Shown here: in pieces, positions 35,561 to 51,370 of the stretch
How positions within the stretch are numbered: the stretch's first letter is position 1
Layout: every line of letters starts with the position of its first letter
Source of the DNA: Pseudomonadota bacterium
Lineage (GTDB): Bacteria > Pseudomonadota > Gammaproteobacteria > Steroidobacterales > Steroidobacteraceae
Length of the DNA stretch: 64,000 nucleotides
Direction of reading: 5' to 3'
NCBI GenBank assembly: GCA_021792755.1
Contig: JAJYUA010000006.1
Span: 1 to 64,000, forward strand
Notes under the pieces: generated by a model
Database searches by the model: none
What the model was told of the DNA's origin: nothing
What the model saw: only the letters and a program-made list of their open reading frames with translations
Translations under genes and position numbers: made by a program

Positions 35561-37000
35561 TCAGAGCCGGTACGCCTGCTTCGGCAGCCGGTAAGCGAGG
35601 TCGCGCGCCACCTCGAGCGCCTCGTCCTGCGGCAGGCGGTGCTCGGCGACCAGACGGGCGAGGAAGGCGCAGTCGACACGCCGCGCCACATCGTGGCGCG
35701 CCGGAATGGACAGGAACGCGCGCGTATCGTCATTGAAACCCACTGTGTTGTAGAAGCCGGCCGTCTCGGTGGTCTGCTCGCGAAAGCGCATCAACCCCTC
35801 CGGGCTATCGTGAAACCACCACGCCGGCCCGAGCCTCAGCGCCGGGTAGTGTCCGGCGAGCGGTGCGAGCTCGCGGCTGTAGCTCGATTCGTCGAGGGTG
35901 AAGACGATGACCCTGAGGGTCGGCTCGTTGCCGAAGCGGTTAAGCAGCGGGCGCAGCGCCCTGACGTAGTCGGTCGGTGTGGGCATGTCTGCGCCGATGT
36001 TCGGCCCGAAGCGGCGGAACAGCGCCGCGTTGTGATTGCGCCAGCAGCCCGGGTGAATCTGCAGCACCAGTCCGTCATCGAGACTCATGCGGGCCATTTC
36101 CGTGAGCATCTGGGCCCGGAAGGCTTCCGCGTCGGCGCTCGCGAGCGAGCCGGCGCGCACTGCGCGCAGCACGCGCTCGAAGAGCGCGGCGGCGGCGGCG
36201 GCGTCGAGGTCGGCGGTGCGCGCCGTCGGGTGACCGTGGTCGGTGGAAGTGGCGCCAAAGGAGGCGAAGAACGCGCGCCGCGCGCGGTGCGCATCGAGGT
36301 AGCCGCGCCAGGTGAACGGATCGGTGCCGGTGAGCGCCCCGAAGCGCTCCAGGTTTGCCACGAACCCCGGCGTTTGCGGGTCGATCACCGGATCGGGGCG
36401 GTAGGCCGGGATGACACGCCCTGGCCAGCCGCTCGTGCGCAGCGCGGCGTGATGCTCGAGCGTGTCGAGCGGTGATTCTGTAGTGGTCAGGACTTCGATG
36501 CCGAAGCGCTCGAACAGCGCGCGCGGGCGGAAGGCCGGTTCGGCGAGTCGTGCGTTGATCCGCCGGTACGCCTCATCGGCATTGTCCGGGGTGAGCGGCA
36601 CGTCGGCACCGAAAACCTCAGCGAGCACCCAGTCGAGCCACAGCCGGGTGGGGGTGCCGCGGAAGAGCCGGTAGTGCGCGGCGAAGGTGCGCCAGATGGC
36701 AGGCGGGTCCGGTGGACTTTGCCGCTCCTCCCCCCCGGGGGCTACGCCGAGCGCCTCGAGCGCGACGCCCTGACTGTACAGCATGCGGGTAATGTAGTGA
36801 TCCGGCGTCAGAAGCAGCGAGGCGGGATCGCTGAAGGGCTGATCGGCGGCGAACCAGCGCGGGTCGGTGTGCCCGTGCGGGCTGATGATGGGCAGCGCCC
36901 GCACCGCCGCGTACAGCCGCCGTGCGATGGCGCGCGTGCCGGGCTCTGCGGGGAACAGCCGGTCCGGGTGCAGCGCGGTGGGCTCGGAATGTGCGCTCAT
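35561..37000 (-). CDS. uxaC: uronate (glucuronate) isomerase
   Basis: A 479-residue TIM-barrel metalloenzyme that converts D-glucuronate to D-fructuronate and D-galacturonate to D-tagaturonate. Family motifs include ISPHGHTDPRWFA with the metal-binding HGH near residue 41-44, LTPDHYITRMLYSQG, TTTESPLDTLEHH, QIHPGCWRNHN, AWWFHDSPEGLMRFRE and GFNDDTRAFLSIPARHDVARR. It lies 57 bases downstream of the GH67 alpha-glucuronidase gene on the same strand and takes the glucuronate that enzyme releases. The next enzyme, fructuronate reductase, is encoded on the divergent arm. Mannonate dehydratase is not in the window. Confidence 0.95.
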   Translation of the reverse strand: MSAHSEPTALHPDRLFPAEPGTRAIARRLYAAVRALPIISPHGHTDPRWFAADQPFSDPASLLLTPDHYITRMLYSQGVALEALGVAPGGEERQSPPDPPAIWRTFAAHYRLFRGTPTRLWLDWVLAEVFGADVPLTPDNADEAYRRINARLAEPAFRPRALFERFGIEVLTTTESPLDTLEHHAALRTSGWPGRVIPAYRPDPVIDPQTPGFVANLERFGALTGTDPFTWRGYLDAHRARRAFFASFGATSTDHGHPTARTADLDAAAAAALFERVLRAVRAGSLASADAEAFRAQMLTEMARMSLDDGLVLQIHPGCWRNHNAALFRRFGPNIGADMPTPTDYVRALRPLLNRFGNEPTLRVIVFTLDESSYSRELAPLAGHYPALRLGPAWWFHDSPEGLMRFREQTTETAGFYNTVGFNDDTRAFLSIPARHDVARRVDCAFLARLVAEHRLPQDEALEVARDLAYRLPKQAYRL

Positions 37001-37057: not shown

Positions 37058-39304
37058 TCAGCGTGGCACCGGCGCATCGTCCGGCGGACAAGCCGGCCCG
37101 GCTCCCGGGGTGCCCTCCACGTACGGGATGCAGAACGCCTCATAAGCTTTCAACGTGTCCGGCGGTCGTGCAACCCCGGGCGGCAGCGGCAGATGCGAGA
37201 TCGACTGGAAGTACGCGATGCTCGCATCGCGCCACCACTGCGCATTGTGCACCTGCAGCGTGAGAAAGTCTGCCGTCATGTCGAAGCGGTACGGATCGAC
37301 GTAACGGGCAAGCTTCAGCCAGGTGCGGCGCATCCACTTGACCGTATCGACACCGCGCACGTAGTGCAGCACGAGCGAGTCCCAGAGCGTGCGGCCCGAA
37401 GGCATGCGGTAGGTCCAAGGCAGGTGGTGAAACCACAGCAGCAGGTCCTCGGGGCAGTGCTTGAGACTGGCGAACTTTGCCGCCACGTGCGGGGCGTATT
37501 GGGCGATGGCGTCGCTGCCGCTGGCGGTGCGGTCAAAGCCGATGCCGGTGGCGTTTGCGTGGCTGTAGTACGTGCTCGACCAGTCCGGAGGCATGTGCGG
37601 GCCTGGATGAACCCAGGGACCGGGACCGAAATGGGTGCCGGCGGCCATCTGGCTGGCAAGGCCGAGCGGGTCCATATAATCGACCACGGCCTCGCGGGAA
37701 GCCATCATCATGCCTACCACCGGACGGAGGAGCGCCGGGTTGTTGCTGAAGGTCATGCGCACCCACTGACCGGCGATGGTGCGCGCGGAGGCCTCGGGGT
37801 TCCAGGCGAGCCGCCCGAACGCGTACCAGTTGGACTGGTTGAAGATCGAGCCGCACCAGTCGCGGTCCGAGCCGATGTTGGCGACGCCGGCGATGCCGGT
37901 CTGCCGCTCGCCGTAGAGCGAGCCGTCAATCACCCGCGCCACGGTCGATCCGCGGCCGCGTGCCCAGGTGTCGGCGCGCAACGCCTCCTCGAACAGCGTG
38001 CCGAGGTACGCGAAGCTTGTCTGCTGGCCGAGGTACTCCTTGGTGATCTCGAGCTCCAGCATTTCGTTGCTCTTGGGCATGGCGCCGAACAGCGGATTGA
38101 ACGGCTCGCGCGGCTGGAAGTCGAGCGGGCCGTTCTTGTTCTGCAAGATGACGTTCTGGTCGAACTTGCCGTCGAGCGGCTTGAAGATGTCGTACGCCTG
38201 CATGACGCGATCTTCGGAATGCGGGTTCGTCGAATAGACGAACGTGCGCCACATCACGATGCCGCCGTAGGGCGCGAGCGTCCGTGCGAGCAGATTCGCG
38301 CCCTGCGCCTGGGTGCGCCCATACTGCTCCGGTCCCGGCTCGCCCTCGGAGTCGGCTTTGGTCAGGAAGCCGCCGAAGTCCGGCACATCGCGGTAGATCT
38401 CGGCGACCTTCTTGCGCCACCAAGCCTGCACGGCCGGATCGAGCGGGTCGGCGGTCTTCAGGCGCCCGACCGTGATCGGGGCGCTGAACGGCACCGACAG
38501 GTAAACCCGGATGCCATAGGGGCGCAGCACGCCGGCGAGCGCCGCGACCTTCTCCAGATAGAGCGGTGTCAGGATGTACGGGCTGGCGTTGACGTTGTTC
38601 AGCACCACGCCGTTGATCCCGATCGAGGCGCAGGCGCGCGCGAAGGCGATGTAGCGGGGCGAGAGGTACCGCGGTAGCTCGTCCCATTTCCAGATCGAGT
38701 CCCCGGCATAGCCGCGCTCGACCGTGCCGTTGAGGTTGTCCCAGAAATCGAGGATCCGATGGCGAATTTTCGGGCGCGAGACGATGGCGAGCGCGTCGAT
38801 TGGCCGGCGAGTCTGGATCTGCCGCAGGTAGCGGAAGGCCCCGTAAAGCACGCCGATGTCGCTGTTGCCCGCGATGACGGTGGTGCGGTGGCCGAGCACG
38901 GTCAGGGTGCGGATCACATAACCCTGCGAGCCGACCGCGCGCAGGCCGAGGCGCAGGGAGCGGATGAGCGGGGAGTCGTGCGGCGTGCCGAACAGTATCG
39001 CGCCGTTGGCGGTGACTGTACGCACGCTGGGCACCCGCTTGCCGAGCATGCCGGTAAGCCCGCGCTGCAGTTCGGCGCGTGCCGCGCGCAGGGTCGGTGA
39101 GAGCGGACTGCTCGCGGCGAGTTCGGTGGCCGAGCGGCGGTAGCGGCCGAGCCACACCCCATGCACCGGTACGTAGCGCAGCCACAGACGGTAGCCATCC
39201 CCGGCATGCGCCGCGGCGGCCGCAGTCAGCCCCGCCAGGCCCAGGAGCACAGCGAAGAGCACGCTCCACCCACGACGGTGCACGGAAGCCGTCGACTGCA
39301 TCAT
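37058..39304 (-). CDS. GH67 alpha-glucuronidase
   Basis: A 748-residue secreted enzyme that removes (4-O-methyl)glucuronic acid from xylo-oligosaccharides. Two ATG codons in a row (39304 and 39301) follow GGGGGA; the signal peptide is WSVLFAVLLGLAGLTAAAA. The N-terminal GH67 domain includes YGAFRYLRQIQTRRPIDALA. The catalytic barrel has RHRILDFWDNLNGTVERGY, the region TKADSEGEPGPEQYG and QNKNGPLDFQPREPFNPLFG, which hold the acidic residues used in this family, and the C-terminal domain has MWRTFVY and DWSSTYYSHANATGIGFDR. It is the first gene of the minus arm, 33 bases from the LacI-type operator, followed by uxaC. Confidence 0.95.
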   Translation of the reverse strand: MMQSTASVHRRGWSVLFAVLLGLAGLTAAAAAHAGDGYRLWLRYVPVHGVWLGRYRRSATELAASSPLSPTLRAARAELQRGLTGMLGKRVPSVRTVTANGAILFGTPHDSPLIRSLRLGLRAVGSQGYVIRTLTVLGHRTTVIAGNSDIGVLYGAFRYLRQIQTRRPIDALAIVSRPKIRHRILDFWDNLNGTVERGYAGDSIWKWDELPRYLSPRYIAFARACASIGINGVVLNNVNASPYILTPLYLEKVAALAGVLRPYGIRVYLSVPFSAPITVGRLKTADPLDPAVQAWWRKKVAEIYRDVPDFGGFLTKADSEGEPGPEQYGRTQAQGANLLARTLAPYGGIVMWRTFVYSTNPHSEDRVMQAYDIFKPLDGKFDQNVILQNKNGPLDFQPREPFNPLFGAMPKSNEMLELEITKEYLGQQTSFAYLGTLFEEALRADTWARGRGSTVARVIDGSLYGERQTGIAGVANIGSDRDWCGSIFNQSNWYAFGRLAWNPEASARTIAGQWVRMTFSNNPALLRPVVGMMMASREAVVDYMDPLGLASQMAAGTHFGPGPWVHPGPHMPPDWSSTYYSHANATGIGFDRTASGSDAIAQYAPHVAAKFASLKHCPEDLLLWFHHLPWTYRMPSGRTLWDSLVLHYVRGVDTVKWMRRTWLKLARYVDPYRFDMTADFLTLQVHNAQWWRDASIAYFQSISHLPLPPGVARPPDTLKAYEAFCIPYVEGTPGAGPACPPDDAPVPR

Positions 39305-39336
39305 AGTCCCCCGCAATGACGAAATGCGTTGCAGGA

Positions 39337-39350
39337 TGATAGCGCTACCA
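39337..39350 (+). promoter_or_regulatory. LacI-type operator between the two uronate arms
   Basis: TGATAGCGCTACCA is a near-palindrome with a perfect TAGCGCTA core, the form of LacI/GalR-family operators. It lies in the 60-base gap between the GH67 start and uxuB, so one bound repressor could control both arms. A 12-of-14 match occurs upstream of the GH3 gene at 51090-51103. Confidence 0.65.
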
Positions 39351-39364
39351 TTAGGCTGGATTCA

Positions 39365-40816
39365 ATGACTCGACACCGGCTCAGCGCAGCGACTCTGTCC
39401 GAGGCCCGGCCGCAGACGGCTCGCCCGGCCTATGCCCGCGAGGCCTGCCGCGTCGGCTGGGTGCATTTCGGTCCGGGCGCTTTCCACCGCGCGCACCAAG
39501 CCTACTACGCCGAGCGGCTGCTTTGCCGCGACCCGCGCTGGGCGATCAGCGCGGTCTCGCTGCACAGCGCGGCCGCGCGCGATGCGCTCGCGCCGCAGGA
39601 CTACCTTTACTGCCTGGCCGAGCTCGCCGAGCGCCCGCGCATCCGCGTGATCGGCGCGCTGCGCGAGATTCTGCTGGCGCCGGCGGACCGGCCGGCGGTG
39701 TTTGCCCGCCTCGTCTCGGCCGACACCCGGCTCGTCACCGTGACCGTGACGGAGAAGGGATACTGCCTTGGCGGGGCCGGACAGCTCGATGTCGAGCACC
39801 CGGACATCGCGCACGATTTGCGCGCCGGCGCTGCCCCATGCAGCGTCATCGGCTTTCTCGCCGAGGGGCTGCGCCGGCGGCGCGCGCAGGGGCTGAAGCC
39901 CTTCGCGGTGATCAGTTGCGACAACCTGCCAAACAACGGTCCGACCCTGCGTTCGGCGTTGGCGGCGTTCGCGGCGCACACGGATGACCGCTTCTCCCGG
40001 TGGATCGAGAGCGAGGTCGCCTTCCCGCGCACCATGGTCGACAGCATCACGCCCGCCACCGATGCCGAGCTCATCGCTCGTGTCGCTGCTGCGAGCGGCC
40101 TCGAGGACGCCTGGCCGGTTCAGCGCGAACCGTTCACCCAGTGGGTCATCGAGGATCTGCCTGCGGTACGCGTGGCCGATTGGGCCTCGGTCGGCGTGAC
40201 GCTGACGGCTGACGTGGCAGTCTATGACCGCGCCAAGCTGCGCATCGTCAACGGGGCGCACTCGACGCTCGCCTACATCGGCCTGCTGCGCGGTCGGGCC
40301 ACCGTGGCCGAAGCGATGGCCGATGCGCCGCTCGCCGGTTTCCTCGAGCGGCTGCTGCGTGAGGACATTGCCCCGAGTCTCGGCGGCGCCGGTGCATTCG
40401 ATGTCCACGGCTCCATCGCCGCGACGCTGCAGCGCTTTCGCAATCCGAGCGTTCGTCATCAGCTGGCGCAGATTGCCTGGGATGGCTCGAAGAAGCTGCC
40501 GGTGCGGCTGATGCCGACCGTCGCCGAGGCGCTCGCAGCCGGCCGGCCGCTCGAGCGGCTCGCCGTGCCGATTGCGGCCTGGATGCGCTTCGTCATCGCT
40601 CGGGTCCGCGCCGGCGGCGTGCTGAACGATCCGGCCGCCGAGCGGTTGCTCGCGCTCGGTCGCGACTGCGACGGGGATGCGCGGCGGGACGTCGCGCGCT
40701 TTCTGACGTTGCAGGACATCTTTGCACCACCGCTGGCCGCCGCGCCGGCGCTCGTGCGCGCACTGGTCGCAGCTTACCGGGCGCTCGGCAGCGGCGGGCA
40801 GCTCGGGTGCGAATAG
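39365..40816 (+). CDS. uxuB: fructuronate reductase (mannitol dehydrogenase family)
   Basis: From ATG 39365 the product has 483 residues and belongs to the long-chain mannitol dehydrogenase family. The N-terminal NAD-binding part begins VGWVHFGPGAFHRAHQAYYA and contains VTVTEKGYC and ISCDNLPNNG. The C-terminal catalytic helix reads KLRIVNGAHSTLAYIGLL with the usual Lys-Asn-His set. UxuB reduces D-fructuronate to D-mannonate, the step after UxaC. The context (GH67, uxaC) favours fructuronate over mannitol or tagaturonate as substrate. A TTG at 39329 is in frame, but it would place the operator inside the coding region. It heads the plus arm. Confidence 0.88.
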   Translation: MTRHRLSAATLSEARPQTARPAYAREACRVGWVHFGPGAFHRAHQAYYAERLLCRDPRWAISAVSLHSAAARDALAPQDYLYCLAELAERPRIRVIGALREILLAPADRPAVFARLVSADTRLVTVTVTEKGYCLGGAGQLDVEHPDIAHDLRAGAAPCSVIGFLAEGLRRRRAQGLKPFAVISCDNLPNNGPTLRSALAAFAAHTDDRFSRWIESEVAFPRTMVDSITPATDAELIARVAAASGLEDAWPVQREPFTQWVIEDLPAVRVADWASVGVTLTADVAVYDRAKLRIVNGAHSTLAYIGLLRGRATVAEAMADAPLAGFLERLLREDIAPSLGGAGAFDVHGSIAATLQRFRNPSVRHQLAQIAWDGSKKLPVRLMPTVAEALAAGRPLERLAVPIAAWMRFVIARVRAGGVLNDPAAERLLALGRDCDGDARRDVARFLTLQDIFAPPLAAAPALVRALVAAYRALGSGGQLGCE

Positions 40817-40866
40817 AGCGTTGCTGCCGCGGCGCGCAGTGCCTCGGCGAGCGCCCGGGAGAATTC

Positions 40867-41016
40867 ATGATCTTCAACCGGGTCTCGCAGGGAACCTATC
40901 GGCAGCGCGCGTGGAAGGTCCTGCGCATCTGGAACGGGGATCAAACCGACTGGGGCCTGAATTTCACTTCCATCCCCCAGGTGCTGCACGTGCATCCGGC
41001 CACTTATCGGGCGTGA
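40867..41016 (+). pseudogene. C-terminal remnant resembling GH35/DUF5597 beta-galactosidase
   Basis: A 49-residue frame opens at ATG 40867 with GGGAG five bases before it and contains AWKVLRIWNGDQTDWGLNFT followed by SIPQVLHVHPATY. The block WNGDQTD.GLNF and the closing V-L-x-V strand are the pattern seen at the C-terminal end of GH35 beta-galactosidases with a DUF5597 domain. No catalytic part is present, so the piece looks like the tail of a deleted gene that may still be translated. It lies between uxuB and the GH31 gene. The match is from recall and should be searched. Confidence 0.5.
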
Positions 41017-41026
41017 GGAGCGGTTC

Positions 41027-43939
41027 ATGAGGCAAAGCGATCTCATTGGCGGGCGGGTCACCTTCGCTCGCGTCACGCCGTGGCTCGGCGCGTGCGCCTG
41101 CCTGCTGGCGCACGTGGCTGCGGCGGCGCGGGTCACCGGCGCGGTCGAGCGCATCGCCGATGGCATCGTCGTGACGCCGGCCTCGGGCGCCGCCAGACGG
41201 GTGCGACTGGAGGTGGTTTCGCCGCAAATCGTGCATGTGACGGCCTTCCCGGGCACGAGCCTGCGGCTGCCGAAGAGCCTGATAGCGGTGCGCACCGGCA
41301 CGACGGGCGTGCCGTTCAAGGTGCGTCAGACCCCCACGATGGTGGCGCTTGCCACGCACGATCTGATCGTGCAGGTGCGCCTCGCCAATGGCCAGGTGAT
41401 ATTCCGCAACGCCCAGGGCGGACTGATCACCCGCGAGCTGCCGGGCGGCAGCAGCTTCCGGCCGGTGAGGGTAGACGGCCGGTCGTTCTACCAGATCCGC
41501 CAGCAGTTTGCCTCGACCCCGGGCGAGGCGTTTTACGGTCTCGGCCAGCAGCAGACCGGACGCATCGATTACAAGGACCGGAGCCTGACGCTGGCCCAGC
41601 ACAACATGAGCAGCGCGGTGCCGTTCGTGGTGTCGAGCCGCAACTATGGCATTCTGTGGGACAACGATTCCATTACGCGCTTCGGCAATCCGCGGCCATG
41701 GCAGCCGCTGTCACGCGGCCTGATTCTCTTCAATGCGCAGGGCAGGCGCGGCGGACTGACCGCGCGCTACTACGTCAACGGCAAGCTGGTCCTCACGCGC
41801 ACCGAGCGCAACATCGACTATCAATATCTCACCTGGCACGACCACTATCCGCGCTCCTTCCCCAAGGCGCTGGTCGATCTGCCGCAGGTAAAGGTTGTGT
41901 GGAGCGGCAAGATCGAGGCGCGCACCAGCGGATTGCAGACCTTTACCCTCTACGGCAGCAATTCCCAGCGACTGTGGCTCGGGGGGCACAAGGTCATCGA
42001 CACGTGGCGGCAGAGCTGGAATCCCTGGTTCGACAACTTCCGCGTGCGCATGCGCGCCGGCAAGCCGCTGGCGATCCGGCTCGTCTGGAACCGCAAGGGC
42101 GGGTATATCGCATTGCTGCAGCGTCCGCCGCGCCCCAAGGCCGTGCGCGGCCGGCTGTCCCTGTACTCCGAGTTCGGCCACGCGATCGACTACTATTTCA
42201 TTGCCGGGCGTGATCTGCATCAGGTGATCGCGGGTTACCGTGACGTCACCGGCCGCGCGGTGCTGCTGCCGCGCTGGGCGTACGGCTACTGGCAGAGTCG
42301 CAACTACTACGAGACGCAGCAGCAGCTACTGAAGGTGGTCGAGACATACCGCCGGCTCGGCCTGCCGCTCGATAACATCGTGCAGGACTGGCGGTACTGG
42401 CGGCGGGACGCCTGGGGCTCGGACCGCTTCGACCGGCGGCGCTATCCGGCGCCGCGCGCCATGATCGCCAAAGTGCACGCGCTGCACGCGCACTTCATGA
42501 TCTCCGTGTGGCCGAAGTTCTACCCGCGCACGGCCAACTTCAAGCAGCTTGCCGCGCACGGCGACATCTTTCCGCTCACTTTGAAGCTCGGCATCAAGGA
42601 TTGGGTACGTCCGGGCTTCAGGTTCGGCTTCTATGATCCGTTCTCGGCCGCGGCGCGTCACCGGTATTGGAACCAGATCGAGCGCAACCTGGGGGCGCTC
42701 GGCGTGGACGCCTGGTGGTTGGATTCCGACGAGCCGGACATGGTGTCAAATGCCTCGATCGCCGAACGGGAGGCGTTCATGACGCCGACGCCGCTCGGGC
42801 CGGGCGCCGCGGTGTTCAACGCCTATGCGCTCGAGCACGTGTGCGGGGTGTACCACGGCAACCTGCGTTTTCGGCCCGATACAAGGGTCTTCATCCTGTC
42901 GCGCTCGGGATTTGCCGGGTTGCAGCGCTGCGCAGCTGCGGTCTGGAGCGGCGACACCGCATCGAGCTGGTCGGACCTGAAGGACCAGATCGCCGCCGGC
43001 ATCGGCTACTCGCTCTCCGGGCTGCCGAACTGGACGATGGACATCGGCGGCTACGAGCCTCGGCAACGCTACGTGCGCCCCGATGCGGCCAACCTCGCCG
43101 AATGGCGCGAGCTCTATACCCGCTGGTTCGAATTCGGCGCGTTCTGTCCGATCTTCCGCTCCCACGGCATGCCGCCGTTCCGAGAGATCTACAACATCTC
43201 GCCGCCGGGCACGAAGATCTACGACATCCTGGCCTCCTACGACATGCTGCGCTACCGGCTGATGCCCTACATCTATACCCTCGCGGGCGACACATGGCTG
43301 CGCAACGGCACGATCATGCAGGCTCTCGAGATGGACTTCCCGCACGACCCGCGCGTGCGCAGCATTGCCACCGAGTACATGTTCGGCCCGGCGTTTCTGC
43401 TGAGCCCGGTGTACCGCTATCGTGCGCGGCGCTGGCCGGTGTATCTGCCCACCGGTGCGCTCTGGTACGATTTCTTCACCAACCACCTGTATCGTGGCGG
43501 GCGCTCGGTGACCGTGGCGGCGCCGCTGGCGCGCGAGCCGCTGTTCGTGCGTGCCGGCTCGATCGTGCCCGTGGGGCCGGCGATTCAATACACCGGCGAG
43601 CGACCCGGCGCGCCCATGACGCTCCTGGTCTACACGGGGGCGAGCGGCGCCTTCACGCTGTACGAGGATCAGGGCACCACGCTCGGCTATCGGCATGGCC
43701 AGTACGCGCTGATTCCGTTCACCTACGATCAGGCGAGCGGCACGCTCACCATCGGCCGGCGCACCGGGAGCTATCCGGGCATGGCGCACACGCGGCAGTT
43801 CACGGTCCGCTTCATCGGCCCGGGCTCACCGGCCGGTGATGATTACGCGGCACCGGCCGATCGCCTCGTGCAGTATTCGGGTACGCCGGTGCGGGTGCGC
43901 TGCGCGGCGTGCGCACACGAAGCGGAGGGCAACACATGA
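41027..43939 (+). CDS. GH31 alpha-xylosidase with PA14 insert
   Basis: A 970-residue secreted enzyme. After the signal peptide comes the N-terminal beta domain (to about residue 230), a PA14-like insert (about 240-370, beginning GGLTARYYVNGKL and including DNFRVRMRAGKPLAIRLVW), the catalytic barrel (PRWAYGYWQSRNYYETQQQL) with nucleophile D566 in WWLDSDEP and acid/base D643 in WSGDTASSW, and C-terminal beta domains (APLAREPLFVRAGSIVP). PA14-containing GH31 proteins such as Xyl31A of Cellvibrio remove alpha-xylose from xyloglucan oligosaccharides, which is the likely role. It overlaps the GH27 gene by 4 bases (ATGA). Confidence 0.9.
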   Translation: MRQSDLIGGRVTFARVTPWLGACACLLAHVAAAARVTGAVERIADGIVVTPASGAARRVRLEVVSPQIVHVTAFPGTSLRLPKSLIAVRTGTTGVPFKVRQTPTMVALATHDLIVQVRLANGQVIFRNAQGGLITRELPGGSSFRPVRVDGRSFYQIRQQFASTPGEAFYGLGQQQTGRIDYKDRSLTLAQHNMSSAVPFVVSSRNYGILWDNDSITRFGNPRPWQPLSRGLILFNAQGRRGGLTARYYVNGKLVLTRTERNIDYQYLTWHDHYPRSFPKALVDLPQVKVVWSGKIEARTSGLQTFTLYGSNSQRLWLGGHKVIDTWRQSWNPWFDNFRVRMRAGKPLAIRLVWNRKGGYIALLQRPPRPKAVRGRLSLYSEFGHAIDYYFIAGRDLHQVIAGYRDVTGRAVLLPRWAYGYWQSRNYYETQQQLLKVVETYRRLGLPLDNIVQDWRYWRRDAWGSDRFDRRRYPAPRAMIAKVHALHAHFMISVWPKFYPRTANFKQLAAHGDIFPLTLKLGIKDWVRPGFRFGFYDPFSAAARHRYWNQIERNLGALGVDAWWLDSDEPDMVSNASIAEREAFMTPTPLGPGAAVFNAYALEHVCGVYHGNLRFRPDTRVFILSRSGFAGLQRCAAAVWSGDTASSWSDLKDQIAAGIGYSLSGLPNWTMDIGGYEPRQRYVRPDAANLAEWRELYTRWFEFGAFCPIFRSHGMPPFREIYNISPPGTKIYDILASYDMLRYRLMPYIYTLAGDTWLRNGTIMQALEMDFPHDPRVRSIATEYMFGPAFLLSPVYRYRARRWPVYLPTGALWYDFFTNHLYRGGRSVTVAAPLAREPLFVRAGSIVPVGPAIQYTGERPGAPMTLLVYTGASGAFTLYEDQGTTLGYRHGQYALIPFTYDQASGTLTIGRRTGSYPGMAHTRQFTVRFIGPGSPAGDDYAAPADRLVQYSGTPVRVRCAACAHEAEGNT

Positions 43940-45393
43940 TGCGCGCAATTACGGCCGACCGCCGGCGTGGTCGCCGCGGCGAGCGGATTGGGTGGGTCCA
44001 TAGTGCCGGGGCCGCGAGGCGTCGTGGCTGGGGTATGCCCGGATGGGCGCTGGCCGTGGCCGCGGCGGGCCTCTTGGCCTGCGGCCCGGCGCTGGCCGGC
44101 GCCCATGTGCTCGCGCGCCGGCCACCCATGGGTTGGAACAGCTGGGACGCGTACGGCAAAACCCTCACCGAGGCGCAATTTCGCGCCAACGTGCGCTGGA
44201 TGGCGAAGCATCTGCGCCGCTACGGCTGGCGCTACGCGGTGATCGATGCGGGGTGGTCCGTGTCTGGCGGCGGTGCGCGCGCAGGGGTTCTGACGATGGA
44301 TCGCTACGGTCGCTACCTGCCGGTGCCGGACCATTTCCCCTCGGCGGCCGGCGGCCGGGGGTTCGGCCCGCTCGCGCACTACGTGCACTCGCTGGGCTTG
44401 AAGTTCGGCATTCATATCATGCGCGGCATACCCAAAGAGGCGGTGAGCGCGAACCTGCCCATTGCCGGCTCGCCCTTTCACGCGCGGCAGGCGGCTGATC
44501 TGCACGCGCCGTGCTCGTGGGACCCCCACAACGATGGGGTGGCTGACAACGCCGCCGGCCAGGCGTACTACGATTCGATTGTGCGCCTCTATGCCCGTTG
44601 GCACGTCGATTTCATCAAGGTGGACTGCATCTCCAGCCGGCCGTACGCGGCGGCCGACATTCGCATGCTTGCCCAGGCGATGCGCGCCGCCGGACGGCCG
44701 ATCGTGATCAGTCTCTCGCCCGGTCCCACGCCGCTCGACAAACTGGCGCAGCTGCGCCGCGACGCCAACATGTGGCGCATCTCGAACGACGTCTGGGACC
44801 TGTGGCGCAGCACAAGCGCCTTTCCGCAGGGTGTCGCCAACCAGTTCGCGCCCCTGGCGCGCTGGGCGCCCCTTGCCCGCCCCGGGCACTGGCCGGATGC
44901 GGACATGTTCGCCATCGGTTATCTCGGGCCGCACCCCGGTCTGGGCGAGGCGCGCTGGAGCCGCCTGACCCACGCCGAGCAACGCACGTACATGACGCTG
45001 TGGTGCATCGCGCGCTCGCCGCTGATGATCGGCGCCAATCTGACGCGCATGAATCGCTGGACCCTCTCGTTGCTCGACAACCGGGCGGTGATCGCCGTCG
45101 ATCAGGACGCGACGGACGCCCATCAGGTTCTGGCCCGCCATCGGTTCGTGGTGTGGATGTCGCGTCCGCAACGCGGCGGCGGCTGGTATCTGGCGGCGTT
45201 CAATCTGGCCGGCCGGGCGCGCACCCTGAAGCTGCCGTGGCGCGCGCTGTCGTTGCCGGGGAAACGCTACCGGCTGCGTGAGCTGTGGCAGCGGCGGTCC
45301 CTCGGCTCTGCGGGCGCGCTGCGCGTGCGGCTCGCAGCGCACGGATCGCTCCTGTATCGCCTGAGACGCGTGCCAGCGGCGGCGCGGGGATGA
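43936..45393 (+). CDS. GH27 alpha-galactosidase
   Basis: The coupled ATG 43936 (GGAGGG upstream, overlapping the GH31 stop) gives 485 residues. The hydrophobic export segment then lies about 35 residues in (GWALAVAAAGLLACGPAL), so ATG 44035 is an alternative start. The barrel begins RPPMGWNSWDAYGKTLTE, the family signature. The nucleophile is D230 in IKVDCISSR and the acid/base is D285 in RISNDVWD. Substrate residues WCIARSPLMIGANLTRM and a C-terminal beta domain follow. GH27 enzymes release alpha-galactose, for example from galacto(gluco)mannan side chains; some act on beta-L-arabinopyranosides. It is co-translated with GH31. Confidence 0.9.
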   Translation: MMRAITADRRRGRRGERIGWVHSAGAARRRGWGMPGWALAVAAAGLLACGPALAGAHVLARRPPMGWNSWDAYGKTLTEAQFRANVRWMAKHLRRYGWRYAVIDAGWSVSGGGARAGVLTMDRYGRYLPVPDHFPSAAGGRGFGPLAHYVHSLGLKFGIHIMRGIPKEAVSANLPIAGSPFHARQAADLHAPCSWDPHNDGVADNAAGQAYYDSIVRLYARWHVDFIKVDCISSRPYAAADIRMLAQAMRAAGRPIVISLSPGPTPLDKLAQLRRDANMWRISNDVWDLWRSTSAFPQGVANQFAPLARWAPLARPGHWPDADMFAIGYLGPHPGLGEARWSRLTHAEQRTYMTLWCIARSPLMIGANLTRMNRWTLSLLDNRAVIAVDQDATDAHQVLARHRFVVWMSRPQRGGGWYLAAFNLAGRARTLKLPWRALSLPGKRYRLRELWQRRSLGSAGALRVRLAAHGSLLYRLRRVPAAARG

Positions 45394-45630
45394 CACTCGC
45401 AAGGTATCCACAGCGATGCGACGACAGCTCTTCGGACGGATGGCCGGCAAGGTGGCGGCAACCTCGGCACGGACGCCGCTACGCGGCCTGGGGGCGTGTC
45501 GCAGGTGCAACCGCTGGGCGATCCCGCTGCGCGGCGCTGGCAGCAGACCGGCGCAGCTTTGCAGGTCGAGCTGCCCAGGCTTGCCTGCGGGGCAGAGTAC
45601 GCGGTGGCGCTGCGGGTGCGTCTGACATGA
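45394..45630 (+). pseudogene. C-terminal remnant resembling GH29 alpha-L-fucosidase
   Basis: Immediately after the GH27 stop, the same frame continues open to TGA 45628-45630. The last part reads VSQVQPLGDPAARRWQQTGA followed by ALQVELPRLACGAEYAVALR and VRLT. A W-x-Q-T-x-x-x-L-x-V-x-LP run followed by a final A-x-x-LR strand is typical of the C-terminal beta domain of GH29 fucosidases. There is no start codon except an internal GTG (45496) and no catalytic region. It looks like the tail of a lost enzyme gene. GH95 or another sandwich-ended hydrolase would be the alternative. Confidence 0.4.
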
Positions 45631-45671
45631 TGGACGGGGCAGGTGGGGACAATTCGCATTCGAGGTGTCAG

Positions 45672-46568
45672 ATGACAGAGTCAGCGGTCGCAGAAATCTC
45701 TATCGCGCACGGCGATTATGCGCTCGAGATCTTGCCGGGGCTGGGCGGAGCGCTCGCCGGCCTGCGTTTTCGGGGAGGGGAAGTGCTGCGGCGCACCCCG
45801 CCGGGCGCCACCGAGCCGCTGGACAGCGCCGGCTTCCCGCTCATGCCGTTTGCCAACCGGATCGCACATGGCCGCTTCCGTTTCGGGGCCCGGCAGCTGC
45901 AGCTGGCGCGCAACGCACCCGGTCAGGCCCATCCGTTGCATGGCCAGAGCTGGCGCGCGCCCTGGACGGTGGAGTCTCACGATACGCACCAGGCGGTACT
46001 GGCGTTCGAGTATGCCCCGGGCGATTGGCCGTGGCCGTACCGGGCGCAACAGATGTTTACGCTGCAGAAGTGGGGTCTTGAGGTGCGGCTGACGCTCGAG
46101 AACCGCGCGAGCGAGCCGATGCCGGCCGGAATCGGCTGGCATCCCTACTTTCGCCGCACGCCCTTGACGCGCCTGCGTGCCGAAGTCGCCGGTGTGTGGC
46201 TCGCCGATGAGCAGTGCCTGCCGACCTCGCCTGCGCCGGCGCATCGGATTTTGGACTGGAGCCGAGGCGAGCGGCTGCCCGAGAAACTCATCGATCACTG
46301 TTATACGGGCTGGAGCGGCCGGGCTGACCTCGTGATACCGGAGGAGCAGCTGTGCGTACGGCTCGAGGCCGACGAGCCGCTTCGCTGGTTGCATCTCTAC
46401 GTTCCGCCCGGGGAGTCCTTCCTGTGCCTCGAGCCCGTCAGCCACATGCCCGATGCGCTCAACCGGGCGGAGGCGCCGGGGGTGAGCGGCCTGCGCGAAC
46501 TGCGGCCCGGTGAGTCGCTGACGGGTGCGATCAGGCTCGCGGTGAGTCCTCAGCCGTGCCCCGCCTGA
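45672..46568 (+). CDS. aldose 1-epimerase family protein
   Basis: From ATG 45672 (GAGGTG upstream) the product has 298 residues without a signal peptide. It shows the galactose mutarotase pattern: GGALAGLRFRG, PLMPFANRIAHGRFRF, HPLHGQSWRAPW with the catalytic His, LENRASEPMPAGIGWHPYFR with the second His, and FLCLEPVSHMPDALNR with the catalytic Glu. It interconverts the anomers of aldoses, here probably the sugars freed by the neighbouring glycosidases. It ends the plus arm and converges with the potassium-channel gene. Confidence 0.88.
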   Translation: MTESAVAEISIAHGDYALEILPGLGGALAGLRFRGGEVLRRTPPGATEPLDSAGFPLMPFANRIAHGRFRFGARQLQLARNAPGQAHPLHGQSWRAPWTVESHDTHQAVLAFEYAPGDWPWPYRAQQMFTLQKWGLEVRLTLENRASEPMPAGIGWHPYFRRTPLTRLRAEVAGVWLADEQCLPTSPAPAHRILDWSRGERLPEKLIDHCYTGWSGRADLVIPEEQLCVRLEADEPLRWLHLYVPPGESFLCLEPVSHMPDALNRAEAPGVSGLRELRPGESLTGAIRLAVSPQPCPA

Positions 46569-46616
46569 CTGGCCTGACGCGGCGGCCGCGCCGCGCGGGT
46601 CGTGAGCGCGGGGCGC

Positions 46617-47489
46617 TCAGTTGAGCGGTTCGATATCGTGGAACCGGCGGTAATCGATCTGGTCGATGCCGTCCTCGCCGCGGCTGAGGATGTCGGCAAA
46701 CGTGTGCTGCCAGCGCAGCAACTCCGGCGGGTACTCCTGGCGTGCGATCAGCGTCTGGCCGGTCGTCTCGTCTATGCCCCCGATGGTCAGGATCAGGAAC
46801 GTATTGTCGGTGCGCAGCGTCTCACTCGTCGCCCCGGCGAGCGGACTGTCGGGGGTCAGGGTGTGCATCAGCGTCCACCCGTAGAGGAACGCAGGCTGCT
46901 CGCTGCGGCGCAGCGGCAGATCGTGAATGCGGCGGATCGAGTAGCCCTCGACGGTGCGCTCGTCGCGCACCAGGCGCAATCTCGCCTGCGCCTCCATGAT
47001 CACGTTGTGCCGTTCGTTCGCCGCGCGCAGCATCAGCGTCGGCTCGCCATCGAGCGGGCGGATGACGGCGTAGCGGGCGAAGAGGATGCGGGCCGTCGGA
47101 CGGGAGAAGCGCGCAAACATCATGCCGGCGATGACCGCGAGGCTCATTACGCCGGTGAAGATCTCGACCGAGGCGACGATGTGCGCGAACATGGTCTGCG
47201 GATGCATGTCGCCGTAGCCGACGGTGGCGAGCGTCTCGACGCTGAAGAAGAAGCAGCCCCAGAACCCCGGCGGGTTGAGCTGGGCGATGCCCCCCTCGCG
47301 CAGCCAGTAAACAGCGGCAAACAGCAGATTGAACACCGTGAGGAAGGCGGCGAAGCTGGCGAACAGCCGTGGCCAGCTGATGGTCATGTAGACGTGATAC
47401 AGGTCCTGCCAGCGGCGCCGCGGCAGGCCGTGGCGCACGAAGCGGCGGCCCGTGTTGAGCGTATGAACGACCGGAGCGCTACGGGGCAC
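46617..47489 (-). CDS. inward-rectifier potassium channel, KirBac type
   Basis: GTG 47489 has AGGAG five bases upstream and gives 290 residues. An amphipathic slide helix (RRWQDLYHVYMTISWPRLFA) leads into the outer membrane helix, a pore helix and the selectivity filter ETLATVGYGDMHP, the inner helix (IVASVEIFTGVMSLAVIAGM), and the cytoplasmic immunoglobulin-like Kir domain (NVIMEAQARLRLVRDERTVE; WTLMHTLTPDSPLAG; DNTFLILTIGG). KirBac channels let potassium cross the inner membrane. There is no link to the sugar genes on either side. A long inverted repeat lies about 240 bases upstream. Confidence 0.92.
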   Translation of the reverse strand: MPRSAPVVHTLNTGRRFVRHGLPRRRWQDLYHVYMTISWPRLFASFAAFLTVFNLLFAAVYWLREGGIAQLNPPGFWGCFFFSVETLATVGYGDMHPQTMFAHIVASVEIFTGVMSLAVIAGMMFARFSRPTARILFARYAVIRPLDGEPTLMLRAANERHNVIMEAQARLRLVRDERTVEGYSIRRIHDLPLRRSEQPAFLYGWTLMHTLTPDSPLAGATSETLRTDNTFLILTIGGIDETTGQTLIARQEYPPELLRWQHTFADILSRGEDGIDQIDYRRFHDIEPLN

Positions 47490-47726
47490 GGGGGCTCCTG
47501 CACGGCGGATGACTGTCGGCCCGCGAAGGGTAGTCAAGCCGCTGCGGCCGTTCAAGCGCCGGCGGCGGTTTCGGTGCGTGTCGCTCGAGTGACAGCCCGG
47601 CGGGACGGCGGGGGAGGCCGCGGCTTCGCCCGCCGATGGCCGGCCGTCATCCTCAGCGGGGTGGCTGGCAGGGGCACGGCGCCGCGCTCGTCCCCGGCGC
47701 GGCTTCCGCTAGGGAAGGGGTTGCCG

Positions 47727-47753
47727 CTGGTTACCCTATCATGGGATAACCAG
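47727..47753. repeat. 27-base near-perfect inverted repeat
   Basis: Perfect 7-base arms CTGGTTA and TAACCAG enclose an inner part that pairs almost completely (CC with GG, AT with AT), with one C:A mismatch, one G:T pair and a single central base. No T run follows on either strand, so a protein-binding site is more likely than a terminator. It lies upstream of the channel gene. Confidence 0.6.
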
Positions 47754-48007
47754 CCGGCGACATCGAGGCCGGCGGCTTCGACGACCGTCGCCCCAGCGAC
47801 GTCGACTGCCGGTCGTGCGTGTTCCGGGCCTCCCCGCAGGGCCCCTCCATAGCCCGCCGGAAAGCCGCACGGCAACCGCTTGCACCCGCTAGGACATCTC
47901 GCCTCGGTCTGCAGTGTCACCGAGAAATCCTACCGGCACTGTTGGCACCAAAATCAGCGGGACCGCCGTTCTGCGCTGATTCGTCCAAAAAAGGGGGACG
48001 TGACAAA

Positions 48008-48024
48008 GCCCCGCTGATCGGGGC
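48008..48024 (-). terminator. candidate terminator of the GH3 gene
   Basis: On the minus strand GCCCCG, loop ATCAG, CGGGGC is followed by TTTGTC and shortly after by a run of six T. It stands about 140 bases after the GH3 stop. The U tract is weak. Confidence 0.4.
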
Positions 48025-48163
48025 GTCGCGCCCGCGCGGCGGGTCACGAGCGCTGCCGGATGACCGAGCGAACCGGCCGCGCCGCGAATCGAGCCCTGCC
48101 GCAGAACTCCGCCGGGGGCTTGGCCACGAGTGCCGCTCGTCGTGTGGACCGAAGCGACGGCTG

Positions 48164-51004
48164 TCAGCGCAGCAGCACGGTTAGGCCGCCGTGGCGTGCG
48201 ACGCCACAGTGCGCACCGGCGCCAGGACGGGAACCAACACCGGCACACGTGCCGTGCGCGAGCGCCGCGGTGCCGTAGAGAGTCGCGTATTGCCGGACCC
48301 CCCAGGACGGCGGCGTGACAGCGAAGATCGCCGTGGCGGCCTGATCAGGCGCGACACTGTGGTGCACGTCATCGAGCGGCGCCACGCGCCAGCCGCCGGG
48401 GGCCTCGAGGCTGAAGGTGACGTTGTGCAGCGTCTCGCTGCCGCCGGCGCCGAGCGACACGCGAACCACGGAGCCGGACCCCGGTGCAAAGGCGCTCGGC
48501 GCAGAGACCGTCACCCGCCGGCCACCGACTGCGTCCTTCATCGTGTAGCGAGCGGTGAGCGGCAGATCCGCGCGAGCCGAGGAATCTCCGACGTAGACGC
48601 GATAGATGCCCGCAGTCTCGGTCCAGCCCTTGTGATGCCACCACCATTCCTCACGCGGCGTGATCGTGAAGCGCAGCCGCTTCGATTGGCCGGGCGACAA
48701 CGTGACGCGCTGAAAGCCCACGAGTTCGCGCGGCGGCTCCCCGCTCGCGGTCGGCTTGCCGAGGTAGAGCTGGGCGACGTCGGTGCCTGTCACCCGCCCG
48801 ACATTGATCACGCGCGCGCTGACTTCGACCGGGGTGACGCCGTTGACGGAGCTGCGGCTCAGACGCAGGTCGCTGTATCGGAAGCGTGCATAGGACAGCC
48901 CGAAGCCGAACGGGAACAATGGCTTGATGTGCTTCGCCTCGTACCAGCGATAGCCGACCAGAACCCCTTCCGAGTAATGAACCTTGCCATTGACGCCGGG
49001 GAAACGGGCGCGGCTCGCAGCCGGCACGTTGGCCAGACGCTGCGGGAAGGTTACCGGGAGGTGGCCGCCCGGATCGACCTTGCCGAAAAGCAGGTTGGCG
49101 AGCGCCGTACCGTTGGTCTGTCCGGGGTACCACGTGTCGAGGACGGCGGGTACCTGCTGCAACCACGGCATGACAATCGGCGCGCCGGCCTGCACGACGA
49201 CCACAGTGTGCGCATTGGCTTTCGCGACTGCGCTGATCAATGCGTTCTGCGCCGAGGGCAGGCGCAGATCGGGCCGGTCGGCGCCCTCGGACTCGGTATT
49301 ATCGGCCACCACGACGACGGCGATCTGCGCCGATTGTGCCGCCTTCACGGCCCGCGCGATCGCGGCACTCACGATCGAGGGTGTCGCCCAGGTAAGTGTG
49401 TCGCCCGGGGCGTAGCCGCTCACCGTGAGCGCATAGGTGCGGCCCTTGGTGAGCTGCGCGGCGGCCGAGTAGGTCGCCACCGGAGGCGTGCCGGGATTGT
49501 TGATCAGGGTTGTGCCGTCAAGGGCGAGGCTCGCGAGGCGGTAGCAGCCGCAGCCGTTCGTGAGGCCGATGATGTAGGTGCCGGATTGAGGCGCTGTCAA
49601 GGTCTCGGCATACACTGCGCCCGCATTCTTGCCGGCGTGCGCAGCTGACAGATCCGTGGCGGGAATCGGCGTCAGCTGTGCGTTGCTCGGCAGACCCTGG
49701 GCATAGCGGATACGGCTCTTGCCGGCAATCGCCTCGATGCCCGCAAGGGGCGTCACCGTCGCAGAGGGTATGACGTGGGCGCTGCCGCCACCGGCGTACG
49801 TCGGTTCCGCGGCCGCTGCCGGACCGATCAGCACGAGCCGCTGCGCGGTCGACAGGGGCAGCAGATGGGCACTGTTCTTGAGCAGCACGGCGCCGGCTTC
49901 GGCCACCTGGGTGGAGATCGCCCGGTGTGCGGCCGTCGTCGCGAGCGCGCGCGTCGTGGCCGGTCGCGGATGATCGAAGAAATCGAACCGGAACATCTGG
50001 TAGAGAATGGGCTCGACCATCGTGTTCAGCCGCGCCGCGGAGACGACGCCCTTGCGCAGCGCTTGCCGCAGCGCAGCACCAAAGAAGCGGTTGCCGGGCT
50101 CTTCGATATTGGCGCCGGCCTTGGCCGCCGAGACGTCGTGAATGCCAGTCCAATCCGAGGTGACGAAGCCGTTGAAATTCCACTCCTCCCGCAGCACGTC
50201 GGTGAGCAGATACTGATCCTGGCAGCTGTAGTGGCCGTTCACCGTCGCATAGGAGCACATGATCGAGCCGACGGCCGCCCTGCGCACGGCAGCGCGGAAT
50301 GCCGGCATATAGATCTCGTGCAGCGCGCGCTCGGAGACGAGGACGTCGTCCTGCGGCGTATTGCGGTTCGTTTCCTGGTTGTAGGCGTCGAAGTGCTTGA
50401 CCTGTGCAATGGTTCCACGGCTTTGAATGCCGCGTATCTCAGGGACAACGAGCTGTGCCGCCAGGTAGGGATCTTCCGAGAGACTCTCGAACTCACGGCC
50501 CCAGCGCGGATCGCGGTCGATGTTGACGGTGGGGCCAAGATCGACCGCAGAGCCCTTCGCGGCCTGCTCAGCGCCGATCACCCGTCCGTACCGATAAGCC
50601 AGCCGGCGCGAGAACGTCGCCGCCAGTGCCGCGCCGGAGGGCAGAGCCGTTACGCCAGTCATTCCGTCGCCGACGCCGTTCGGCCCGTCCTCCAGGCCGA
50701 GCGAGGGCATGCACAGTGCCGTGTTCTGCGGGACGTCGCCCACATAGGGATGCGTGCCATGACCTTCAACCACGGCGATCTCATCGCCTGGGGTCATCTT
50801 GCGCATGATCATCGCCACGCGCCGCGCGATCGACACGTGCGAATCGATCCACGGACAGTTCGCGACATGGCCGGCACGCCCCCCGGGCGGGCGGCTCGGT
50901 GCGGCGCTCTTCGAGCCGCCGGCGCTCAGCCCAAGCGCCGCAACGCCGATGCAGGCGACCAGGGCGGAAGGGGCTGCGCGGGACATTTTTCCGCTGACGG
51001 GCAA
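48164..51004 (-). CDS. GH3 beta-glucosidase-type glycoside hydrolase
   Basis: About 946 residues from TTG 51004 (AGGTG upstream) or 940 from ATG 50986; both give an export signal (SALVACIGVAALGLSAGG). The GH3 barrel comes first (VVEGHGTHPYVGDVPQ, LGLEDGPNGVG, IDRDPRWGREFESLSEDPYL, QVKHFDAYNQE), with nucleophile Asp in GFVTSDWTG. The C-terminal domain has AEAGAVLLKNSAHLLPL, and a PA14-like insert (AVYAETLTAPQSGTYIIGL) interrupts it. An Fn3-like domain (VINVGRVTGTDVAQLYLGKP) follows, and last an NPCBM-associated type domain (NVTFSLEAPGGWRV). The likely role is beta-glucosidase or beta-xylosidase action on oligosaccharides. A LacI-type operator upstream links it to the uronate locus. Confidence 0.9.
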   Translation of the reverse strand: MPVSGKMSRAAPSALVACIGVAALGLSAGGSKSAAPSRPPGGRAGHVANCPWIDSHVSIARRVAMIMRKMTPGDEIAVVEGHGTHPYVGDVPQNTALCMPSLGLEDGPNGVGDGMTGVTALPSGAALAATFSRRLAYRYGRVIGAEQAAKGSAVDLGPTVNIDRDPRWGREFESLSEDPYLAAQLVVPEIRGIQSRGTIAQVKHFDAYNQETNRNTPQDDVLVSERALHEIYMPAFRAAVRRAAVGSIMCSYATVNGHYSCQDQYLLTDVLREEWNFNGFVTSDWTGIHDVSAAKAGANIEEPGNRFFGAALRQALRKGVVSAARLNTMVEPILYQMFRFDFFDHPRPATTRALATTAAHRAISTQVAEAGAVLLKNSAHLLPLSTAQRLVLIGPAAAAEPTYAGGGSAHVIPSATVTPLAGIEAIAGKSRIRYAQGLPSNAQLTPIPATDLSAAHAGKNAGAVYAETLTAPQSGTYIIGLTNGCGCYRLASLALDGTTLINNPGTPPVATYSAAAQLTKGRTYALTVSGYAPGDTLTWATPSIVSAAIARAVKAAQSAQIAVVVVADNTESEGADRPDLRLPSAQNALISAVAKANAHTVVVVQAGAPIVMPWLQQVPAVLDTWYPGQTNGTALANLLFGKVDPGGHLPVTFPQRLANVPAASRARFPGVNGKVHYSEGVLVGYRWYEAKHIKPLFPFGFGLSYARFRYSDLRLSRSSVNGVTPVEVSARVINVGRVTGTDVAQLYLGKPTASGEPPRELVGFQRVTLSPGQSKRLRFTITPREEWWWHHKGWTETAGIYRVYVGDSSARADLPLTARYTMKDAVGGRRVTVSAPSAFAPGSGSVVRVSLGAGGSETLHNVTFSLEAPGGWRVAPLDDVHHSVAPDQAATAIFAVTPPSWGVRQYATLYGTAALAHGTCAGVGSRPGAGAHCGVARHGGLTVLLR

Positions 51005-51370
51005 CTGAGCACCTTTGGCGGCAAGATCCCCAGGAGCCGTGCGGCCCGCGTGAGTGCCGTCGGTGGAACGGGTTCCGGAGGATGGCCGATGAGAGCGCTA
51101 TCATAGCCGATAAATCAGGGCACGGCACTCGAGAGCCCGGCCCGGATGGATCTGCGCCTCAACCGGCGATGTCCTCATCCGGGCCGACCCGATCGCAACC
51201 CCTGGAGCCGGGCGGCACCGCCTCGGCGGCCGGGTGCCTGCGGCTTGCGCGGCCGGGACCAGCCGTCCGTGCTCTGGGCCATCCAAGATATGAATACGTT
51301 CGCCGTGCATTGTCGTGTCGGTAGCGCCCTCACGGCAGGATCATCATATCAATCAGGGGAAACGAGGAAG
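51005..51370. other. regulatory region between GH3 and the metal island
   Basis: About 365 bases containing the LacI-type operator at 51090-51103 and, by position, the GH3 promoter. Frames here have no motif content apart from the regulator fragment that begins at 51371. Confidence 0.45.
51090..51103 (-). promoter_or_regulatory. LacI-type operator upstream of the GH3 gene
   Basis: TGAGAGCGCTATCA; read on the minus strand it is TGATAGCGCTCTCA and matches the site at 39337-39350 in 12 of 14 positions. It lies about 90 bases before the GH3 start, a usual operator position. Confidence 0.6.

Follow-up and report, generated by a model that had tools for sequence, protein, structure and literature searches.

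The GH67–uxuB locus and its palindromic sites

The window considered here, the whole 64-kb stretch of Steroidobacteraceae DNA that was analysed, contains a divergent set of genes for the catabolism of glucuronate side chains. On the minus strand lies a GH67 α-glucuronidase (37058–39316; Pfam PF03648, PF07488 and PF07477), for which the likely ATG start is at 39304. Downstream on the same strand, and probably co-transcribed with it, is the glucuronate isomerase gene uxaC (35561–37000; PF02614). The plus-strand arm begins with a UxuB-type fructuronate reductase of the mannitol dehydrogenase family (39365–40816; PF01232 and PF08125), the match of which to NCBIfam NF011611 falls below the model cut-off. 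Downstream of uxuB on this strand are Pfam-assigned genes for a GH31 enzyme of the α-xylosidase/α-glucosidase type (41027–43939) and a GH27-like α-galactosidase (Melibiase_2; 43909–45393), as well as an aldose 1-epimerase (45285–46568; PF01263), the true start of which is probably nearer 45600. An inward-rectifier-type K+ channel assigned by Pfam (Kch; 46617–47555) and a GH3 glycoside hydrolase (48164–51004; PF00933, PF01915 and PF14310) follow on the minus strand.

Two similar 14-base sequences are situated before these genes. The first, TGATAGCGCTACCA / TGGTAGCGCTATCA, occupies positions 39337–39350 between GH67 and uxuB, and the second, TGATAGCGCTCTCA, occupies 51090–51103 on the minus strand upstream of GH3. 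The original prediction had placed them here and reported agreement at 12 of 14 positions, and the sequence confirms both points. This similarity is weak evidence on its own, since a loose motif drawn from the pair (TGATAGCGCTNNCA, allowing up to two mismatches) is matched eight times in the window against 4.8 ± 2.4 expected, and pattern searches across the genome likewise place it near background. Matches at two mismatches were consequently discarded as evidence. The refined motif TGRTANCGNTAYCA (TGRTA-NCGN-TAYCA) is far rarer; in first-order Markov simulations approximately zero exact matches are expected in the window, where one is found (39337), and 0.06 matches with a single mismatch, where again one is found (51090). 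The claim that the motif exceeds background therefore holds for the exact form, which occurs seven times in the 3.76-Mb genome against once for the reversed pattern, and fails for the loose one.

The exact site at 39337 is conserved. Upstream of congeneric GH67 orthologues of at least 70% identity, it is present with no more than one mismatch in 18 of 20, in 17 of them exactly, and was not found in the remaining two. A predicted σ70-like GH67 promoter, TTGAAT-18-TATCAT (39336–39365, minus strand), places its −10 element over the site, and TATCAT recurs directly at the operator edge upstream of GH67 in most relatives. This arrangement would fit repression by covering of the promoter.

A probable xylose repressor encoded on another contig

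Genes with a LacI-type helix-turn-helix domain number five in this genome and are located on contigs C41, C51, C3, C31 and C45. None lies in the window, in keeping with the prediction that the repressor would be encoded elsewhere. The C41 protein exceeds the Pfam cut-offs for both the helix-turn-helix (PF00356) and the sugar-binding (PF13377) domains. NCBIfam and PDB searches with it returned only generic LacI-family matches, and no NCBIfam model naming XylR. Its gene, xylR, lies within approximately 10 kb of xylA, xylB and an adjoining gene for a XylE-type transporter. Four of the seven exact genomic sites are on C41, at 79593, 94998, 99206 and 100468. The site at 99206, TGGTAACGATATCA, is 150 bp upstream of xylR, such that a LacI-family gene bearing the motif in its own promoter, as had been anticipated, is indeed present. 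That at 100468, TGGTAGCGATACCA, precedes xylE, and that at 94998, TGGTAGCGGTATCA, separates xylB–xylA (xylulokinase–xylose isomerase) from a DUF634–GDSL pair, where "DUF634" is an ad hoc label for a 634-aa protein without a family match. Further sites precede a GH3 gene on C51 (exact), a GH115 gene on C18 (one mismatch) and a gene for an IlvD/Edd dehydratase on C37, where the site departs from the search pattern at two positions and from the refined motif at one. The small regulon of two promoters originally proposed is thus replaced by a genome-wide xylose and xylan set with a known regulator and operator. The 14-base palindrome is very probably the operator of the LacI-family xylose repressor XylR encoded on C41, and its sites would delimit this wider regulon.

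Comparison within the genus bears on the same assignment. Among 58 same-genus genomes, the 25 with an xylR orthologue contain 2–11 exact sites (mean 7.0) and the 33 without one contain a mean of 0.64 (Mann-Whitney p = 4e-11, a value that overstates independence because the genomes share ancestry, although the contrast is still near complete). Counts for the reversed pattern are 0.84 and 0.27, respectively. Three genomes are exceptions. Two of these (G098 and G103) are 80 and 84% complete, and xylR may therefore be missing from the assembly. The third (G106) is 96% complete and has three exact sites and no xylR orthologue of at least 60% identity.

Additional LacI-type features were observed in the genome. 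An exact site on C8, TGATATCGATATCA, lies between genes for a trehalase and a TonB-dependent receptor (L034, G000 C8:6000–20000, 7243) and could be the target of a different LacI protein. The genome also contains a second LacI-type palindrome, TGACAGCGCTGTCA, which as TGACAGCGCTGACA precedes the C3 LacI gene by approximately 33 bp (L031, G000 C3:30000–46000, 8396) and is found again on C51 before a gene whose product is of unknown family (L027, 10115); it probably represents a separate regulon. The 634-aa protein (L023:1421–3325) and one of 650 aa (L027:10260–12212) are alike at their start and match no Pfam or NCBIfam family. Both are encoded behind LacI-type operators and adjoin GDSL esterase and GH3 genes, and they possibly constitute an undescribed family of xylan-related enzymes.

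Relation to known XylR regulons

The reading of the palindrome as a LacI-type operator is borne out by its correspondence to the xyl-box, TGGTAGCGCTAACA, which is the published operator of the LacI-family XylR in Xanthomonas and Caulobacter (PMC10380989, PMC7748154). A xylose motif common to the two genera has been described (PMC1790865), and in both, xylose frees XylR from the xyl-box (PMC10380989). Sites of the present genome are identical to the published xyl-box at 11–13 of 14 positions in the best orientation, and such sites stand at xylB–xylA, xylE, xylR, GH67 and GH3, with a one-mismatch form at GH115. The C41 repressor belongs to a 21-row clade (99/94) with proteins of Pseudoxanthomonas, Lysobacter, Dyella, Luteimonas, Povalibacter and Steroidobacter. 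It is approximately 50–57% identical to the named relatives, drawn from the orders of both C. crescentus and X. campestris, with which it was compared. Related repressors are encoded in 80 further loci, from named organisms or MAGs, many of which contain GH67, GH3, IlvD or sugar-transporter genes; exact sites are found in 30 of these loci (39 sites) against a mean of 0.5 for permuted half-sites, where permutations that merely swap degenerate positions match the same sites.

As in the regulon of X. campestris pv. campestris, a LacI-family repressor is here associated with a near-identical 14-bp palindrome, with xylose isomerase and with xylan genes. A Xanthomonadales locus, that of Dyella, has the same gene set in the order GH67-xylR-xylE-xylA-xylB, and contains the published xyl-box exactly, just upstream of xylB. 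The present system departs from that of X. campestris pv. campestris in its half-site, which is usually TGRTA on both sides (TAYCA, not TAACA), in the inclusion of a uxuB divergent from GH67 among the targets, and in the separation of xylR from GH67. With Caulobacter crescentus it shares a LacI-family XylR, there released by xylose, and nearby IlvD/Edd dehydratase genes; in Caulobacterales loci the related palindrome TGTTAGCGCTAACA or TGGTAGCGCTAACA adjoins related repressors. What sets this genome apart from C. crescentus is that it has the isomerase pathway as well, with xylA and xylB under a site of the XylR type. A literature search found no paper joining XylR with the Steroidobacteraceae.

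Separation of xylR from its ancestral neighbours

Same-genus relatives have xylR in the locus from which it is missing in the window. In one same-genus genome (G018) a single locus with three sites has the order UxaC-GH67-[site]-UxuB-epimerase-Kch-[site]-xylR-[site]-xylE, and Povalibacter and other genera have xylR and GH67 in divergent orientation. No site was found between the two genes in several distant family members where they are adjacent. In same-genus relatives xylR neighbours Kch; in the window it is the GH3 gene that follows Kch. Positions 47555–47776 of the window nevertheless align at 82% DNA identity with the Kch–xylR intergenic region of a second relative (G118), and contain a decayed xylR operator, TGGTTACCCTATCA (47728–47741, plus strand), the G118 equivalent of which is TGGTTACGTTATCA. 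Judged by this alignment and synteny, the window locus is one that has lost its xylR, and the remnant intergenic region marks the former place of the gene.

The two blocks also differ in affinity, as they are most similar to different relatives. The C41 xylR block is 88–92% like that of G038, and the GH67-uxuB-Kch block of the window is 84–86% like those of G018 and G118; Kch itself is 86% like its G018/G118 counterparts and 77% like that of G038. Horizontal exchange or recombination may lie behind this pattern. A fuller scenario can be offered only tentatively, namely that the regulon was rewired by break-up of the locus. The GH67-uxuB-Kch block would have lost its resident xylR and come to be governed in trans by a G038-like xylR on another contig, and GH3, relatives of which elsewhere have another LacI palindrome, would have taken the place of xylR and gained a XylR-type operator.

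The candidate site upstream of GH3

Of the two sites in the window, that at the GH67/uxuB promoter is the one well-supported candidate XylR operator. The GH3 site is approximately 86 bp upstream of its gene, is palindromic at six of seven positions, and is overlapped at its edge by a −10-like TATGAT (51105–51100, minus strand). It is likely, with less assurance than for the first site, to be a real XylR site, and the window GH3 gene is probably, but not surely, a member of the regulon.

Less likely, although still to be taken seriously, is that the GH3 site resembles the motif by chance or serves a different LacI protein, either the C3 LacI, whose operator is close to TGACAGCGCTGTCA, or one that has escaped notice. 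The GH67/uxuB site would then be the sole XylR operator. The GH3 site differs from the XylR motif at one position and from TGACAGCGCTGTCA at two, and TGACAGCGCTGTCA was rejected as its motif for this poorer fit. In a scan of the upstream region no σ70 promoter passes, and the site was not found upstream of ten GH3 relatives. The conservation originally expected of both sites in relatives hence applies to the GH67/uxuB site and not to this one, which may have been recruited recently or may match the motif by coincidence. Five of the ten have TGAAACCGGTTGCA in its place. This conserved palindrome is located approximately 335–362 bp upstream of the GH3 homologue (L112, L113, L116, L117 and L118), and another LacI gene lies near several of these relatives. 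The relatives are, however, only 64–73% identical and too distant for a fair test of conservation, and the geometry of the site, together with its standing as the sole one-mismatch match in 64 kb, argues for XylR.

Proposed regulation of the glucuronate genes

From the distribution, conservation and synteny described above, regulation by XylR may be inferred to proceed as follows. Without xylose, XylR would occupy the GH67–uxuB site, covering the −10 element of GH67 and sitting just before uxuB, and both arms would consequently be silent through a steric block. Xylose derived from glucuronoxylan would bind XylR and free the operator. GH67, UxaC and UxuB would then be co-produced with xylB–xylA, the XylE-type transporter and the DUF634–GDSL pair, and with GH115, a GH3 and the IlvD/Edd dehydratase. 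Of the inducers suggested originally, xylose is the most likely, and glucuronate and isoprimeverose are not favored.

It is very improbable that the uronate genes of the window instead answer, through the same motif, to the LacI protein of C51 with glucuronate or galacturonate as inducer. The C51 gene does adjoin a second uxaC-like gene, and the GH67, UxaC and UxuB of the window are glucuronate genes. The LacI-family uronate regulators UxuR, UxaR, ExuR and KdgR control glucuronate and galacturonate genes. The repressor here is a different one, however, as the sites track the C41 protein across the genus, most are followed by xylose or xylan genes, and the surroundings of the C51 LacI gene contain no TGRTANCGNTAYCA site; the recognition helices also differ (SKKTVSRV vs SPMTVSRV). 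That the motif is mere background, as the near-chance counts of its loose form might suggest, has a negligible probability given the enrichment of exact sites in xylan and xylose promoters, and is refuted for the GH67/uxuB site by its conservation in orthologues and the covariation of sites with the repressor in congeners.

As a further case of the known xylose and xylan regulon, this is not a new kind of system. Control by XylR would add an uncultured Steroidobacteraceae genus to the known range of the xyl-box regulon and tie the catabolism of glucuronate side chains by GH67, UxaC and UxuB to the xylose repressor. Additionally, the locus would provide a clean case in which a repressor has parted from its ancestral target and the operator has been kept.
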